From Vulcanisaeta moutnovskia 768-28 (GTDB lineage Archaea; Thermoproteota; Thermoprotei; Thermoproteales; Thermocladiaceae): a DNA stretch of 64,000 nucleotides. Shown here one piece after another: positions 5,408 to 43,849 of this stretch. The position numbers and the translations under genes were made by a program. The notes beneath the pieces are model-generated. The model was not told the DNA's origin and searched no databases. It was given only the letters and a program-made list of their open reading frames with translations. Where the stretch lies: NCBI RefSeq assembly GCF_000190315.1, contig NC_015151.1, positions 620,001 through 684,000 of the forward strand, in the 5' to 3' direction. The stretch's first letter is position 1; every line of letters begins with the position of its first letter.

Positions 5408-6862
5408 ATGGTACCACCGTTAAGGAAAATAAGTGATTATGTGTGGGAGATACCGAAGGGATATAAGCCGTGCATGAAGGTGCCAGCTAGAATATTCGCC
5501 GACGAGACACTGCTTGAGAAGATGAAGACGGACATGACACTGGAGCAGGCGGCTAATGTCACGTGCTTGCCCGGCATTTATAAGTATAGCATTGCACTGC
5601 CGGATGCCCATCAGGGCTATGGATTCCCAGTGGGTGGTGTGGCGGCCATGGACATAGAACAAGGTGTAGTAAGCCCAGGAGGAATTGGTTATGATATTAA
5701 TTGTGGCGTGAGACTTCTTAGAACAAATTTAACAGAGAAGGATGTCAGGCCTAAATTAAGGGAGCTTGTGGATACTATATTCAAGTTAGTACCTGCTGGT
5801 GTTGGTGAGACTGGGTTGCTTAGGTTGTCCTTTGGTGACCTGGATAAGGTGCTTGATGATGGTGTTGATTGGGCATTGTCTAAGGGCTATGGTTGGAGTG
5901 ATGATAAGAACTTCATTGAGGAGTTTGGGCATTATGAGGGTGCGGACTCGAGTAAGGTTAGTCAGAGGGCTAAGGAGAGGGGTAAGGATGAGCTTGGTAC
6001 TACTGGCAGTGGTAACCACTTCATTGAGATTCAAGTCGTTAATAAGATATTCGATGCGAACCTAGCCAAGAGGCTTGGTATTGAGCAGGAGGGTCAGGTA
6101 ATGGTTCTGATACATACTGGTAGTAGAGGTCTTGGTCACCAAGTCGCCACTGATTACATAAGGGTTGCGGAGAATAAGATGAAGCAGTGGGGCTTGTTCC
6201 TGCCGGATAGGGAGTTGGCAGCGATGCCCCTGAGCACCAAGGAGGCCCAGGACTACCTAGCTGCCATGAAGGCCGCGGCTAACTACGCATGGACGAATAG
6301 GCAAATAATAACGCACTGGGTTAGGGAAGCCTTCAGGAGGGCCTTTGGTAAGGACCCGGACAAGCTTGGTCTTGAGATTGTCTATGATGTCGCCCATAAC
6401 ATCGCTAAGATTGAGGATCACGTGATTGATGACGAGGGTCACGTTAGGAGGGTTCTCGTGCATAGGAAGGGAGCCACAAGGTCATTCCCAGCGGGTAGGC
6501 TGGAGATACCACCTAAGTATAGGGATATTGGACAGCCCGTCCTAATACCCGGTAGCATGGGCACGGCATCCTACGTATTGATTGGTTTACCAACGTCATT
6601 CCAGGTAACCTTTGGTACGGCACCTCACGGAGCTGGTAGAACGCTAAGTAGGTCGGCCGCGGTTAGGATGCTACCACCAAATAAGGTTAGGAGTACTCTG
6701 GAGAGTAGGGGCATTATCGTGAGATCTGCAGAGAGTGAGATAATATCTGAGGAGGCGCCTGAGGCTTATAAGAACGTTGATAAGGTAGCTGAGATTGCCG
6801 AGTTAACTGGTATGGCTAAGAGGGTCTCGAGGCATACACCCATTGGTGTTGTTAAGGGCTAA
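5408..6862 (+). CDS. rtcB: tRNA-splicing ligase RtcB
   Basis: A 484-residue RtcB from the ATG at 5408, close to the mature Pyrococcus enzyme and starting like it (MVPPLRKI...). RtcB joins 2',3'-cyclic phosphate and 5'-OH ends, sealing tRNA exons after intron removal. Catalytic motifs are all present: GYDINCGVRL (metal Cys), GSGNHFIE, IHTGSRGLGHQ, DVAHNIAK, RKGATRSFP, PGSMGTASY and HGAGRTLSR (guanylylated His). No intein interrupts the gene. An ATG at 5390 would add six residues, but a GTTTTATTAA box at 5373-5382 lies about 30 bases before 5408. Its substrate class is in this window: the three-exon tRNA-Thr at 14.8 kb. Confidence 0.96.
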   Translation: MVPPLRKISDYVWEIPKGYKPCMKVPARIFADETLLEKMKTDMTLEQAANVTCLPGIYKYSIALPDAHQGYGFPVGGVAAMDIEQGVVSPGGIGYDINCGVRLLRTNLTEKDVRPKLRELVDTIFKLVPAGVGETGLLRLSFGDLDKVLDDGVDWALSKGYGWSDDKNFIEEFGHYEGADSSKVSQRAKERGKDELGTTGSGNHFIEIQVVNKIFDANLAKRLGIEQEGQVMVLIHTGSRGLGHQVATDYIRVAENKMKQWGLFLPDRELAAMPLSTKEAQDYLAAMKAAANYAWTNRQIITHWVREAFRRAFGKDPDKLGLEIVYDVAHNIAKIEDHVIDDEGHVRRVLVHRKGATRSFPAGRLEIPPKYRDIGQPVLIPGSMGTASYVLIGLPTSFQVTFGTAPHGAGRTLSRSAAVRMLPPNKVRSTLESRGIIVRSAESEIISEEAPEAYKNVDKVAEIAELTGMAKRVSRHTPIGVVKG

Positions 6863-6938
6863 GGCTTTATTGCTTTAAACCATTCCCAGCTGGATAATAG
6901 TAAATCTTTAAAAAGGTGCCCGTTTCTTATCCTGCGTA

Positions 6939-7607
6939 ATGAGTGATCGAGGAATTACACTGTCTAAGGAGACTGTTACTTATCAGGTTAGTGGTGTAAC
7001 GATAATTGAGGAGTGTCCGAGGGATTTGAAGGCACTGGATGGTGAATCAATTAAGTTATTTGGTAAGTGGCCCTTTGATAACGTTATTGTTAAGGACCCA
7101 GGTCTTAGGAGATACCTATGCCTTAAGCCCATGTACTTACCGCACACGAGTGGTAGGTATCAGAAGAGAAAGTTTGGTAAGGCGAAGATACCAGCCATTG
7201 AGAGATTGATTAATCAATTAATGCACCCAGGTAGGAACGCTGGCAAGAAGCACAAGGCCTATAATATTGTTAAGAGAGCCTTCGACATGGTTTATCTAAA
7301 GGCAGGCCAGAATCCAATACAGATCTTTGTTGACGCCCTGGTTAATGCTGCACCAAGGGAGGAGATCACTAGGGTCGTATATGGCGGTATTGCATACCCA
7401 GTATCCGTTGATGTTTCGCCATTGCGAAGACTAGACCTAGCCATCAAGTGGATAATTGAGGGAGCTAGACAATGTTCCTTCAATAATCCTAAACCCATTG
7501 AAGAGTGCCTTGCTGATGAGATAATCGCTGCCGCACAGAATGACCAGAAGTCCTATGCCATTAGGAAGAAGGATGAGATGGAGAGAGTAGCCGCAAGCGC
7601 AAGATGA
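6939..7607 (+). CDS. rps7: 30S ribosomal protein S7
   Basis: A 222-residue archaeal/eukaryotic-type S7 (uS7), which nucleates the 16S rRNA 3' domain and lines the mRNA exit channel. Landmarks are [17 protein letters not shown], the basic [36 protein letters not shown] and the C-terminal [13 protein letters not shown]. The N-terminal extension of about 60 residues is usual for crenarchaea. A TATA box (TCTTTAAAAAGG, about 6904-6915) lies some 30 bases before the ATG, so the mRNA is probably leaderless. It is not in the usual str operon with S12 and EF-2; neighbours are rtcB and the clamp loader. Confidence 0.95.
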
Positions 7608-7760
7608 CAATACCTAATTACTCTATATTCAACTACTCGCAATAACTTAATATTAACCTGCATGAAACAATACACCATGCACTTCTTAAATTTTAATATT
7701 ATTTTACTGGCCACCCAGGAGGAATATTTATTTAACTAAGTAATTCAATAATTACTCGTA

Positions 7761-38091: not shown

Positions 38092-39888
38092 TTACTTTGA
38101 TGATCGCCTAATTTTCAGGATCTCTCTAAGTAATGATAATTCATCCTCAGATAGTTGATCCTTGAATTGTGTCATTAGGGTTATTACATGCTCCTCAGGC
38201 ACATCCACGTATAACTCATCACCCTCCTTAATCTGCCTACCAACCATTAAATTACCCTCTATTGATATTGCCACTTCCATGCCCTTCTTAGCCTCTTGAA
38301 TGTTCTTACCCTTATCCTGTATTTGCATTATTGTACCTATTCTCTTACCATCCCCCCTCATTAATGGATACCCAGGCTTTATCAATCCCTCAATTACTGC
38401 AACACCGACTATCACTGGATTACTTCTTCTGAATACATAGCCAGGAAGAATCCTTATTTTTCCAGGCCTTATGTATCTATCAAGTTCCATCTCGATAAGC
38501 TTGGTTTTCTGCTCCTTATACCACTGGGTAAACTCCTCAACAAGCCTATAAAGTATTTCATTTCTAAATATCTTAACTCCATACTGCATGGCCTCGACCT
38601 CAATATCATGAGGAACCTTAACATTGAAAGCCAGGATAACTCCATATAACGGGTTCTTCTTCCTAACTATGGAAGCATCAACAACATCTCTCCTACTTAC
38701 ATTACCAACATCAGCCTTCCTAACAGGTATTCCCTGGCTTCTAAGGTAAATAACCATTGCCTCAAGAGTACCTAGAGTATCTGCCTTAGCAACAACACCT
38801 TCCTTATCAGTCTCTATCTTAACCTCCGAAACCTCCTCTCTAACCAACTTAACATACTCATCCAGCGAAGCTCCCTGAGGAACAACAAACACCGGTGCGC
38901 CTGGAACAACCTGCTCAAGACCATCAGCAATTATCTTAACACCAGCCGCAGCCCTAACCTCATCCATGAACATGTACCTATCCTCAGGATCCCTCATCTC
39001 ATTAAGTGGCTTAGGCATCACAAGCATCTTGACCTTGGTACTCACATAACCCTCAAGGCCGGCCGTAACTATTAAATCACCCTTTCTAATAACTCCATCA
39101 TATAGAACAACATCAGCCGTGACCCCCCAACCTTTTTCCTCCCTAATCTCCATAACGACCCCCCTACCAGGTCCATACGTTATCCTTAACTTATCCCTAT
39201 TAAATCTCTGGCTTAACCCCGCCAGGACAACGAGCAAGTCGGCTAAGCCCTCTCCAGTGACTGCGCTTGTGGGTACAATAGGCACTTGGGCATCGAAATC
39301 CCTCACCCTATCGTACCTATCAGCATCCATCCCTAATTTATTGAATTCCTCTATTATCCTTGCAATGGCCTCCTCAACCCTACCCTGGACATCCTCCCTC
39401 TGCTTTTCATATGAGTCAAGGAACGGTGCGTTTTCATGAGGTTCCCAACCGTATATTCTATCGAGCTTATTCGCCGCAACCACGAAGGGTATATTCCTTG
39501 ATTTAATTAGGGTGAGGCTTTCGTAGGTCTGTTCCTCAAATCCCCTGGTAATGTCTATGACGAGAACAGCCAAGTCAGCCACAGAGCCACCTCTACGCCT
39601 TAAGTTGGAGAAGGCGGCATGACCTGGCGTATCAACCATTAGGAAACCCTTAATCCAAACCTTGCCCTTAAGCCTAAATTTCATGAGTAGTGGATCAGCT
39701 ATTCTCTCTATGGCATTCCATGGTATGAAGGATAGACCAATGTGTTGTGTAATCATCCCGGGCTCTCTATAGGCCACAAACGTACCTCTTATTTTATCGA
39801 GTAATAATGTCTTACCAACATCAACATGACCAACTACTACGGTAATCGGTGGTCTATAATCCATTAATGAATTATCAACCTTACTCAT
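38092..39888 (-). CDS. infB: translation initiation factor aIF5B
   Basis: A 598-residue aIF5B/eIF5B GTPase for ribosomal subunit joining. G-domain motifs are [16 protein letters not shown] (G1), MITQHIG (G2, preceded by EPG rather than the usual EAGG), [13 protein letters not shown] (G3), ANKLDR (G4) and PTSAVTGEG (G5). Domain II, III and the long linker helix to domain IV follow; length equals that of archaeal homologues. A minus-strand TATA-like GATTTTTAAATC lies about 30 bases upstream of the ATG. Confidence 0.95.
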
Positions 39889-39925: not shown

Positions 39926-40453
39926 TCATTTTTCTTCATAGCATAGAAATGCAGGTATTACTCTCTTTAATAATAGGATTACTAGAAATAAAATGAAAAT
40001 CGATAATGATGATGCAAGCATTAATGTAAAATAATTAGTGTTAATACCCAGTATTATCATGTACATTGTCATTACATGACCTAGCAATGAGTATATATAG
40101 TATGTGAGTACTACGGATAATGAGAGAACAATTAATGATATTAGAAAGATACGAATATCAATTAATTTACTTAAGGATAGAAATATTATGAGAGCTGATA
40201 TCACTAATAAAGAAAGAAGCAATGCATCGCCCACAGCCCTAGGTACCAGGAATAATTCAATTACCGAGTATGCTTCAATAATAATGAATAAATGCCATGA
40301 GTAATGAGAATTTAAGGCAACGATTACATATGATAACAGGATTAGAACAACGCCAATTATGCTGAGAATCCTTAATCCTAATCCGTAAATTAGCAAATTA
40401 ACTATTAGTAAGATCGTGATCCCCATCGCTATCGGTAATCTTAAGGACCTCAT
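39926..40453 (-). CDS. six-TM membrane protein of the DUF58/transglutaminase-like cluster
   Basis: A 175-residue, very hydrophobic protein with about six TM segments and a short cytoplasmic tail (KRVIPAFLCYEEK). No family recognised. It begins 3 bases after the stop of the DUF58 gene, so it is part of the same transcript and probably of the same membrane assembly. Confidence 0.62.
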   Translation of the reverse strand: MRSLRLPIAMGITILLIVNLLIYGLGLRILSIIGVVLILLSYVIVALNSHYSWHLFIIIEAYSVIELFLVPRAVGDALLLSLLVISALIIFLSLSKLIDIRIFLISLIVLSLSVVLTYYIYSLLGHVMTMYMIILGINTNYFTLMLASSLSIFILFLVILLLKRVIPAFLCYEEK

Positions 40454-40456
40454 AAT

Positions 40457-41608
40457 TCATTCACCGAGAACTATCACATTCACGTCACTTAGGTCAATGT
40501 TAGCCTTAATTAATTCATTAAATGAAGCCTTGGTTATTAATAATAAGGAATTCTTATTCAAGTATTTGCTGATAATGTTTACATCCTCCCTTGATAAGCC
40601 GTAATTAGTCTTTACCGGGTAAAGGAACAATGCTAATTCATCAGTACTTACTTCCTTAACGTACTTTCCAAGAATACTCGTGGCCCTATTAATTAATTCC
40701 TGGGTATTTTCCATGCCTATTACTATCTCCCTAAGCTTAAGCTCTAAATCAGCCAATGAAGTACTTGATGTTATAGTTAATAACCTTACTAAGCCATTAC
40801 CGATTAATACGAGAATAAAATTCAAACCCTTTAGATAACTCAGGTATACTAATGCTTCATCGATTGGCCTATTATCATTCAAGGGTTTAAGCATTCTAGG
40901 TGTGTATTCCATGATTACTAACCTAGGTACATTACCTGCCTCAGATCTCGCCACGCTTATTAAGTCATTAACCCTAGCACTGGTTATCCAATGAATATTA
41001 CTGGCAGGTTCCAGGAAATTATACCCCCTTAGATACATGAAATCGCCCAGTCTTGACTCCATTAATGTTATACTCCTCATGTAATCACCAGGCATTTTTT
41101 GACCACCCATTGCTAATAATACCCATTTACTAGGTTCTATTGGTATTGTACGTTCAATTTTAATAAAACGGGAATTCCCAATAATACCGAGGGGGTCGGA
41201 AATCCTGATAATAATACTCAGGATCTCAGCAATACCAAACCACCTAGCCCTTACGTTAAATTGCTCCTGAGGCCCATTTATTACTACGTAATAATCATCA
41301 TTGCATAATAAGTGGGGAGAGCATATTAGGGATACGTGGGCAGGTATTTTTAAACGTAATGGCGATGCCGCAGTAATACTTAGTATGACACTTTGCCTGG
41401 CGAGAATTACCTCATAACTAATCTTAAGTGCCCTTAGGACTATACTGGTTATTAGATCCCACGTTAGGAAGTACGATGTGAACACTAGAAATAAACCAAT
41501 ACCAGTTAGTAATGGTGCCTCATTTTTCGCGTAAATCCCCAGGTACATTAGTAATGCCAATACTACGTAGATAATTAAGACAGCATTATTCCTAGTAATG
41601 GAGCCCAT
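40457..41608 (-). CDS. DUF58 family protein
   Basis: A 383-residue protein with two N-terminal TM helices (AVLIIYVVLALLMYLGIY; LTGIGLFLVFTSYFLTW), a beta domain with IRISDPLGI, and the DUF58 core LGDFMYLRGYNF and HWITSARVNDLIS, where the usual 'RxYxxGDxxRxIdW' reads RGYNFLEPASNIHW, a weakened version. DUF58 proteins carry a degenerate vWA domain and work with MoxR AAA ATPases and transglutaminase-like proteins in envelope or complex maturation. No MoxR gene is visible here. Confidence 0.75.
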   Translation of the reverse strand: MGSITRNNAVLIIYVVLALLMYLGIYAKNEAPLLTGIGLFLVFTSYFLTWDLITSIVLRALKISYEVILARQSVILSITAASPLRLKIPAHVSLICSPHLLCNDDYYVVINGPQEQFNVRARWFGIAEILSIIIRISDPLGIIGNSRFIKIERTIPIEPSKWVLLAMGGQKMPGDYMRSITLMESRLGDFMYLRGYNFLEPASNIHWITSARVNDLISVARSEAGNVPRLVIMEYTPRMLKPLNDNRPIDEALVYLSYLKGLNFILVLIGNGLVRLLTITSSTSLADLELKLREIVIGMENTQELINRATSILGKYVKEVSTDELALFLYPVKTNYGLSREDVNIISKYLNKNSLLLITKASFNELIKANIDLSDVNVIVLGE

Positions 41609-41692
41609 CCCTCAAGCCCCACACTAACCCTTAACATTACTTAATTACTTTTATTGGAATGCGCAAACCAATTAATGAAGGATAACACAATG

Positions 41693-43009
41693 CTAAGACC
41701 TCCTGCTTAAGTAGTAATAAATGTAGTACCCTATTATCCACGGAATCATTAACAAGAAGGAGACTAATGCCGTATATAGTACTATTGACAACAATTGTGA
41801 ATAATCATGAAACTGCGAAGTACTTATTGGTTCAAAGGCCACCCAACCAAAGCTTGTAAATGCCTCAACCCAAATCACGGCATTACCATCTAAGTGATAT
41901 ACATAAGCGTCATTACCCAGGGACTCACCTGCAAAACCCAACGCTATCCTCGTTGGTATCCCCAATGACCTAAGTATAGCCATGGTTAACACTGCATAGT
42001 CCGTAAAGCTTCCCGTACCATTAACCAAGGTATAATCAATGGGGTATGTTGTATTGGATATCATGAAATGATCACCATTTAGGTAACTCAATAATTCCTT
42101 AATCGCCAATACCCCACTTGCATTAAATGATATTGGTATTAACCCCCACGATATGTTAATACCCAGTGGTTCCACATAATCCCTGGCATAAAGCGCCTCA
42201 ATACCTGTATAATTAAGGCCCTGGGATACGTGGCATATCATTAACTTAAAAACCGCAGCATCAATAGGCTCCTTACTTGCTAATAAGTCACCAGGCTCAA
42301 GTACATTAACCTCGGTAAATGGCATAACGGATACTAGGGTTATGTTTGAGACTATGAGCGTTAATGACTTACCTACATTGATGATGAATGGCATGGGTAT
42401 TACCTCAATTGGTTGTGAGAAGTTCTCGTAAATAATGAATGTATTACAGTCAGTACCAACGGCAAGGCTTATCGTTATTGGAGGATAATCCGTAATCACT
42501 GGAACGGAACTCTGCGTACTAATCAATTCATTACCTGTTGAGTTATAATTATCGAACGTGAAATACCTCAATAATACGGGTATTCCTGACTTAACGTATA
42601 CCGTGAGGTTTACATTTACCAAGCTAGATAAGGCAGAGTATGACAAGGTGCTTGGCTTACCAACCTCAATTATCGGTGTAAAGGTACCTATGAATGATGT
42701 ACTGTTTATTGAACCCTCGTAAAAACCAGCATAATCCGAGTCATTGGCAAAATCAAGAATTCCAGGAAATATTCCCTGCCCCTCAATGGCATTAGAACTC
42801 ATTAATTTAACAGATGCCCTTGGTATTACCATTACCGCATACTTAACATTGCTTTGTTGAGCTATTAATTCAATTATGAAGTCATTATTAGTGCTGGCCA
42901 CTATGAAGTAGGGAGCACTTATTGATATTGAGTACGTCACTGATGAACCTGATGCTGCAGGCCTAATCGCAAGCATTACCCCCAGCAAAAGCATTATTAA
43001 TGCGCTCAT
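41693..43009 (-). CDS. transglutaminase-fold membrane protein lacking the catalytic triad
   Basis: A 438-residue protein: N-terminal signal (MLLLGVMLAIRPAASG), long beta-rich ectodomain, transglutaminase-like domain, and C-terminal TM (VLYTALVSFLLMIPWIIGYYIYYYL). The transglutaminase core aligns as GSFTDYAVLTMAILRSLGIP (usual G-x-C-x-h-x-A), NAVIWVEAFTSFGWVAFEPIS (usual HAW.E......W..fDP). The Cys is Phe, the His is Val and the Asp is Glu, so enzyme activity looks lost. A structural or binding role in an envelope complex is inferred. Transcribed towards DUF58; its start is only 15 bases from the divergent DUF4129-like gene. Confidence 0.78.
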   Translation of the reverse strand: MSALIMLLLGVMLAIRPAASGSSVTYSISISAPYFIVASTNNDFIIELIAQQSNVKYAVMVIPRASVKLMSSNAIEGQGIFPGILDFANDSDYAGFYEGSINSTSFIGTFTPIIEVGKPSTLSYSALSSLVNVNLTVYVKSGIPVLLRYFTFDNYNSTGNELISTQSSVPVITDYPPITISLAVGTDCNTFIIYENFSQPIEVIPMPFIINVGKSLTLIVSNITLVSVMPFTEVNVLEPGDLLASKEPIDAAVFKLMICHVSQGLNYTGIEALYARDYVEPLGINISWGLIPISFNASGVLAIKELLSYLNGDHFMISNTTYPIDYTLVNGTGSFTDYAVLTMAILRSLGIPTRIALGFAGESLGNDAYVYHLDGNAVIWVEAFTSFGWVAFEPISTSQFHDYSQLLSIVLYTALVSFLLMIPWIIGYYIYYYLSRRS

Positions 43010-43042
43010 TAATTGTTTGATTTAATGGACCTTAAAAAATTT
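42987..43042. promoter_or_regulatory. overlapping divergent promoters
   Basis: The minus-strand ATG (43009) and plus-strand ATG (43025) are only 15 bases apart. A minus-strand box AATTTTTTAAGG (about 43031-43042) lies inside the plus gene, 28 bases before the minus start; a plus-strand box GCATTATTAATGC (42987-43000, itself palindromic) lies inside the minus gene, about 31 bases before the plus start. Each promoter therefore overlaps the other's coding sequence, allowing mutual interference. Confidence 0.45.
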
Positions 43043-43849
43043 CTTTTGCACTCCCTAATTCTCATTGCACTAATCATTGAATTACTGGTATTAATAAATA
43101 CACAAAGCATTGAAGCATCGACTCAGTTGAATTACCTGTACAGTGGTAATTATGAGCCTATAGCATGGCCCATACTCAATGTAACCCTTACAGTAAATAA
43201 GTCATTAACTAATGGTATAGTAATAATAGTATCTCCTAGTACAGAATCAATAAACAAAGCCTTCACAGGACTACTTATCTTACCTAACAATACCTCCTAC
43301 GTAATTACGGGCTTTTTAGGAAGCTCATTAATCTACATAATTAGTATTGAGAGGATGCCCAATCAAAGCGTAATTAATAATCAATATAGTCAATACTATG
43401 AAACAAACGGAAGGGGTAATATTAAGAAGAACCTAGGAAATGCTGCGGATAATTTAACCACCAGCTCATCAATGGGTAACCTAACTAAGGCAGGAGGTAA
43501 GGGAGAAAGCAGGAAATATGAGGCGCCCTGGAACCTTAATTATCCATTAATAGTAATAATAGTAACAATTATCATGATTTCAGTCTCATTAGCAACCATG
43601 TACATGAGAAGGAGCATGAAATACCCTGATTGCCTTGAATACGGCATTATGAAGATCATGCAGAAGATGAGGATTAGGGAACCAGGGATAACGCATAGGG
43701 AATTAGGTAATTACATAATTGACCGAGTTAATGAAAGGCAAACGGTCGAGGAAATGGTGAGACTGTTTGAGGAGGGTATGTACGGCAATAGGGAAGTTAA
43801 TTGTAGAAGGTTTATGACACTGGTTAGGAGAATCCTCAAGAGAATTTAA
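43025..43849 (+). CDS. membrane protein with a DUF4129-like cytoplasmic domain
   Basis: A 274-residue protein from ATG 43025 (a TTG at 43013 would add four). An N-terminal signal anchor (FLLHSLILIALIIELLVLIN), an ectodomain with several N-x-S/T sequons, a second TM (YPLIVIIVTIIMISVSLAT) at about residues 175-195, and a cytoplasmic end reading REPGITHRELGNYII and MVRLFEEGMYGN, which matches the DUF4129 pattern R-x-P-G-x-T-x-R-E...YG. DUF4129 is found as a C-terminal or partner domain of transglutaminase-like membrane proteins, which supports a joint function with the divergent gene. Confidence 0.68.
   Translation: MDLKKFLLHSLILIALIIELLVLINTQSIEASTQLNYLYSGNYEPIAWPILNVTLTVNKSLTNGIVIIVSPSTESINKAFTGLLILPNNTSYVITGFLGSSLIYIISIERMPNQSVINNQYSQYYETNGRGNIKKNLGNAADNLTTSSSMGNLTKAGGKGESRKYEAPWNLNYPLIVIIVTIIMISVSLATMYMRRSMKYPDCLEYGIMKIMQKMRIREPGITHRELGNYIIDRVNERQTVEEMVRLFEEGMYGNREVNCRRFMTLVRRILKRI

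Follow-up and report, generated by a model that had tools for sequence, protein, structure and literature searches.

The window analysed here is a 64,000-base stretch (bases 620001-684000) of the single 2,298,983-base chromosome of Vulcanisaeta moutnovskia 768-28. In it, four intact ORFs are flanked on one side by infB (38092-39888, encoding IF2) and on the other by a small zinc-ribbon ORF and a NUDIX gene (44123). Three of the four are on the minus strand: P0001, a small polytopic membrane protein of 175 residues (ORF, 39926-40453); P0002, a DUF58-like protein of 383 residues (40457-41608), assigned from its ORF and profile-profile evidence; and P0003, a membrane-anchored pseudo-transglutaminase (TG) of 438 residues (41693-43009), identified by Pfam, alignment to TgpA and Foldseek. 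The fourth gene, P0004, is divergently oriented on the plus strand (ORF 43013-43849, first ATG at 43025) and has a sub-threshold DUF4129 match. The compact four-gene cluster of the preliminary description is therefore real, and its claim that the cluster carries no MoxR ATPase also holds at this locus, where only 84 bp (41609-41692) separate the DUF58-like and TG genes, at the site that MoxR occupies in the orthologous cluster L038. In what follows, same-genus loci are those of Vulcanisaeta, and the next genus (g2) is Caldivirga.

The accessory proteins of the cluster

P0001 has no Pfam or NCBIfam match. It had been described as a six-TM protein; Kyte-Doolittle analysis gives four strong hydrophobic segments in P0001 and seven in its paralogue. 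Its orthologues match at 59-62% in two MoxR-less relatives and at 39-42% in MoxR-retaining and hybrid loci.

P0004 consists of an N-terminal signal or TM segment, an ectodomain, a TM segment (residues 179-197) and a cytosolic C-terminal DUF4129-like domain (residues 222-272). The match to PF13559 (DUF4129) falls below threshold, with 14.4 bits against a cut-off of 24.8 (E=0.04), but the label is supported by the position of the domain after the TM segment and by gene fusion in relatives. In loci L147 and L130, a DUF4129-like stretch, below the Pfam cut-off in both, is fused to the C-terminus of a TG with intact Cys and His, and the single TG-DUF4129 protein adjoins MoxR and DUF58. Because of this fusion, P0003 and P0004 resemble the two parts of a divided TgpA-type protein. 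Bacterial TgpA itself ends C-terminally in DUF4129.

P0002 comprises an N-terminal TM hairpin, an Ig-like beta sandwich, a variant DUF58 motif (YNFLEPASNIHWITSAR) and a VWA-like C-terminal domain without a MIDAS motif. None of the 13 family members, P0002 included, gives a Pfam hit to PF01882 (DUF58), and the MIDAS motif is absent from all 13 sequences; P0002 also has no NCBIfam match. Its structural model returned no PDB fold below E=0.001, the matches being mostly to Ig-like beta sandwiches. The DUF58-like assignment is a tentative one, made on profile-profile evidence below the curated cut-off: in an hhalign comparison with two canonical DUF58 proteins from this genome, E is 1.6e-4 and the probability 50%, and the family profile finds a DUF58 in L130 that is itself Pfam-positive, with E=1.9e-4. 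Across the family the motif reads roughly YDYxxPASxIHWxTSAR, with I205, H206, W207, S210 and A211 invariant in the 13 sequences. What had been called a degenerate DUF58 signature is instead a conserved clade variant, kept also in the MoxR-less copies, and conservation of the motif in the family rules out decay of DUF58. Among MoxR-bearing copies 32 columns are conserved, and all three MoxR-less copies carry the same residue at 30 of them; positions 131 and 197 depart from this.

The transglutaminase fold and its former active site

P0003 begins with a signal sequence (residues 1-20), continues with an N-terminal beta ectodomain and a TG core (residues ~300-395), and ends with a C-terminal TM segment (residues 409-427). 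This signal and TM pattern points to an extracellular type I membrane protein located at the cell surface. The core matches PF01841 (Transglut_core) over residues 318-394 with 42.2 bits, against a Pfam cut-off of 23. The sole PDB sequence match is TgpA (6g49, E=0.022), and Foldseek, using an AlphaFold2 model of moderate confidence (mean pLDDT 61), placed the periplasmic domain of TgpA first among fold matches (6g4h, E=1.6e-9, probability 1.00).

Alignment to TgpA (6g49) and to archaeal relatives with intact Cys and His puts F335, V378 and E393 of P0003 at the positions of the catalytic Cys, His and Asp. The preliminary description had taken all three replacements as evidence of a dead enzyme. 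The changes of Cys to Phe and His to Val are confirmed, and P0003 has neither catalytic residue; the change of Asp to Glu is probably not a loss, because Glu is also common at the third position in relatives whose Cys and His are intact, and the disabling changes are therefore probably just the first two. An alternative triad elsewhere in the protein can be ruled out. The TG core has no Cys, nor does any part of residues 260-438, and the only two cysteines of P0003, C188 and C259, both lie in the N-terminal beta domain. Since these are outside the core and invariant across all homologues, including those of genus g4 in which the catalytic Cys and His are intact, they look like a structural disulfide.

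The loss is not peculiar to this cluster. Homologues of P0003 occur in 19 of 25 searched genomes of the taxonomic family, and not one of the 18 aligned homologues from Vulcanisaeta and Caldivirga, including copies adjacent to MoxR, has retained the catalytic Cys or His. This family alignment excludes loss of the triad in the present cluster only, and does not support the view that a dead TG is a trait of a MoxR-less system. Among the 18 sequences, the first catalytic position is occupied by F, Y, P, I or V and the second by V, A, T, I or L. When the 77 core positions are ranked by entropy, the sites that once held the catalytic residues come 58th, 60th and 67th, placing them among the most variable, and R347, R354, W380, E382 and W389 of the core are invariant. 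As judged from this alignment, substitutions are tolerated at the catalytic site but not in the residues that make the fold.

Intact active sites are found elsewhere. Genus g4 (L051, L054) has full-length P0003 homologues with Cys and His, encoded apart from the MoxR-DUF58 pair of that genus, and in genera g3, g6 and g8 TGs with intact Cys and His adjoin MoxR and DUF58. A regex search of both strands found intact triads in 24 of 33 loci, a figure that is not a rate, as the loci were picked for high score and a few of the matches are spurious. The TG tree with outgroups places g4 outside Vulcanisaeta plus Caldivirga (support 88/89), which suggests a single loss of Cys and His. In the infB tree, g4 instead falls with Caldivirga (97/98), which suggests two. 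A TG tree built without outgroups lacks resolution.

A sister cluster and the deletion of MoxR

The genome holds a second cluster, paralogous to that of the window. This sister cluster (L035, ~2.28 Mb) adjoins rnhB and has the order 6TM-DUF58-MoxR-TG followed by a divergent DUF4129 gene; Caldivirga locus L055 has the same order, with MoxR present. The TG, DUF58 and DUF4129 proteins of the two clusters are homologous by blastp, and the 6TM proteins are equivalent by position and membrane pattern. Phylogenetic trees resolve the paralogues as clades (infB-type TG, 100/100; rnhB-type DUF58, 99/99; infB-type DUF4129, 95/99).

Absence of MoxR from the window cluster is not an original state. An orthologous cluster at the infB/NUDIX site (L038, genome G023) keeps a complete MoxR gene (6664-7620) between TG and DUF58, and MoxR was therefore deleted in cis in one Vulcanisaeta subgroup, namely the window and loci L036 (G018) and L037 (G015), in which only 73-84 bp remain at that position. 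All three genomes with a MoxR-less copy also carry a MoxR-bearing cluster on the rnhB side. The candidate for a distant MoxR partner, for which a search had been suggested, is the MoxR of the sister cluster, at ~2.283 Mb of the same chromosome (G000:C1).

In five other Vulcanisaeta genomes no such cluster occupies the infB-NUDIX site, which marks the infB-side copy as accessory. Together with the near-complete genome G024, which lacks both copies, these empty sites indicate that the system is dispensable.

Models for a transglutaminase-fold protein that has lost its chemistry

Clusters of MoxR, DUF58 and transglutaminase genes are widespread, and their role is poorly understood. A search of a limited collection of papers found none on the Vulcanisaeta/Caldivirga cluster; several known systems resemble parts of it. 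The TgpA operon of Pseudomonas aeruginosa spans PA2875-PA2872 (PMC3507681). P0003 shares with TgpA its fold and a membrane-anchored extracytoplasmic TG domain; TgpA, however, is an active enzyme whose single chain carries both an intact triad and a polytopic N-terminus, whereas the Vulcanisaeta cluster lacks the catalytic Cys and His, and none of its polypeptides combines a polytopic N-terminus, a TG domain and a C-terminal tail in the TgpA manner. PA2874 and PA2875 are presumably the DUF58 and MoxR genes of the operon; by comparison, the parts in the window are split over separate genes, the TG and DUF4129-like genes are divergent, and MoxR is absent in cis. In bifidobacteria, the PFNA cluster (pkb2-fn3-aaa-atp-duf58-tgm), for which an envelope or signalling role has been proposed, contains adjacent genes for a MoxR-family ATPase, DUF58 and a TG protein (PMC8430577). 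DUF58 and TG also occur in the window cluster, but the kinase, FN3 and MoxR genes do not.

Two further comparisons bear on mechanism. Cyk3 of budding yeast has a TG-like domain without the catalytic Cys and regulates chitin synthase (PMC4758748), providing an example of such a domain that acts by regulating another enzyme. Unlike P0003, Cyk3 keeps His and Asp and is cytosolic and eukaryotic, and the comparison between the two is at the superfamily level. In the NorQ/NorD system, a VWA adaptor links a MoxR AAA+ ring to a membrane target, which is remodeled (PMC9976466). The likeness to P0002 is one of general principle, a VWA protein serving as adaptor between ring and membrane target; NorD has and needs a MIDAS motif and P0002 has none.

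We give about an even chance to a model in which the window encodes a paralogous, stripped-down and split TgpA-type MoxR/DUF58/TG envelope system with a pseudoenzyme ectodomain and with MoxR supplied in trans. P0003 would be a membrane-anchored pseudoenzyme made of the extracellular beta domain and the TG fold, its catalytic Cys and His having probably been lost by about the time that Vulcanisaeta and Caldivirga diverged. It would act by binding a substrate-like surface peptide, glycoprotein or partner rather than by acyl transfer. P0004 would give the system the cytosolic tail that is fused to TG in relatives, and P0002 would be the adaptor through which a MoxR ring acts. Most likely, P0002 would use the MoxR of the sister cluster in trans, a reading favoured because the conserved DUF58 residues are kept in the MoxR-less copies.

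The preliminary description suggested that the cluster may act as a scaffold or binding module. Binding is indeed the natural reading for a protein without catalytic Cys and His that is under purifying selection and in which the active site varies and the fold is invariant, but the MoxR-less framing of that proposal is not supported in the form given. Its strictest form would be a static, ATPase-independent surface scaffold, in which DUF58 and the membrane proteins hold a dead TG ectodomain with no AAA+ motor. Three assemblies with MoxR-less clusters, the missing catalytic residues of P0003 and the missing MIDAS motif of DUF58 all fit such a scaffold. We nevertheless consider it possible but doubtful, as the MoxR-less copies retain nearly all DUF58 residues conserved in MoxR-bearing copies, each of these genomes has a sister cluster with MoxR, and MoxR-family adaptors are known to operate with a ring (PMC9976466). 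A related proposal, that a derivative of the MoxR/DUF58/TgpA system free of both MoxR and enzyme activity would have been selected, after loss of the catalytic site and the motor, as a purely binding archaeal surface receptor or scaffold, seems to us unlikely.

Deletion of MoxR, the empty infB-NUDIX sites of relatives and split ORFs in L036 and L037 could instead mean that the infB-side copy is a redundant duplicate decaying toward loss. The split ORFs, however, are probably draft sequencing errors, because the frameshifts at these loci also affect infB and other neighbours; the four ORFs of the window are intact and the TG core scaffold is invariant. Moreover, comparing the TG gene of the window with its two closest orthologues gives dN/dS values of 0.12-0.15 (NG86) or 0.20-0.24 (YN00), which are approximate, as dS is near 1, but well below 1 and close to those of the neighbouring NUDIX gene (0.11-0.17, window-L037 pair). 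TG is thus under purifying selection, which speaks against decay and, with the intact ORFs, makes a pseudogene improbable; we regard the decaying duplicate as quite improbable too. That P0003 is still an enzyme, through a displaced nucleophile or other chemistry, is the least credible reading and highly improbable. Retention of E393 and of W380-x-E382 and the family-wide invariance of C188 and C259 could be cited for it, but no Cys is available in residues 260-438, the two disulfide-like cysteines sit in the beta domain and persist where the catalytic Cys and His are intact, conservation of C259 does not extend to the adjacent H260, and the former catalytic positions vary freely.

What appears to be new, set against the known MoxR/DUF58/TG type of cluster, is a variant with a family-wide pseudo-TG and a MoxR-less paralogue. 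The observation is more informative than when first described, because the dead site extends across the Vulcanisaeta/Caldivirga family and because one genome has both types of copy. In this hot-spring archaeon, the window cluster would be a spare copy of a cell-surface machine, the enzyme part of which most likely binds or holds instead of reacting. That two genera drop TG chemistry yet keep the protein suggests a second, non-catalytic job for the fold, and the presence of MoxR-bearing and MoxR-less copies in a single genome offers a natural test of the purpose of the motor.

Transglutaminase domains and cluster distribution

Across the whole V. moutnovskia genome, searched at Pfam sensitivity, only two Transglut_core matches were detected, both lacking the Cys and the His, and no intact transglutaminase was found. 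Neither cluster copy is present in G024, a 99%-complete Vulcanisaeta genome, where the infB–NUDIX site (L189) holds small ORFs only. In a relative, G006, a 1395-aa protein (L130, 5130-9317) combines one intact transglutaminase domain with a degenerate one, in which Phe replaces the Cys and Val the His, and carries a DUF4129-like stretch at its C-terminus; MoxR and DUF58 come after it.

MoxR paralogues and a hybrid cluster

The MoxR gene of the sister cluster (G000:C1 2283504; L035, 7070-8017) has a paralogue elsewhere on the V. moutnovskia chromosome (G000:C1 345055; L002, 1066-2022). The two share an identical run of 69 bp and match at 85.5% across 276 bp, falling to ~50% beyond that stretch, a pattern that gene conversion might explain, as might strong constraint on the AAA+ core. 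Contig ends fall within this MoxR gene in three relatives' genomes (G015, G021 and G022).

The cluster at L045 (G020:C27 2602-8604) reads rnhB, rnhB-type DUF4129 and transglutaminase-fold genes, MoxR, infB-type DUF58 and six-TM genes, and infB. This hybrid represents either recombination at MoxR that joined the two cluster copies or a chimaeric assembly.

The divergent start region

In the window, the transglutaminase-fold and DUF4129-like genes diverge, with 15 bp between their start codons (43009-43025). Similarly tight spacing occurs at the orthologous loci L036 and L038, and the promoter of each gene must lie within the opposite gene.
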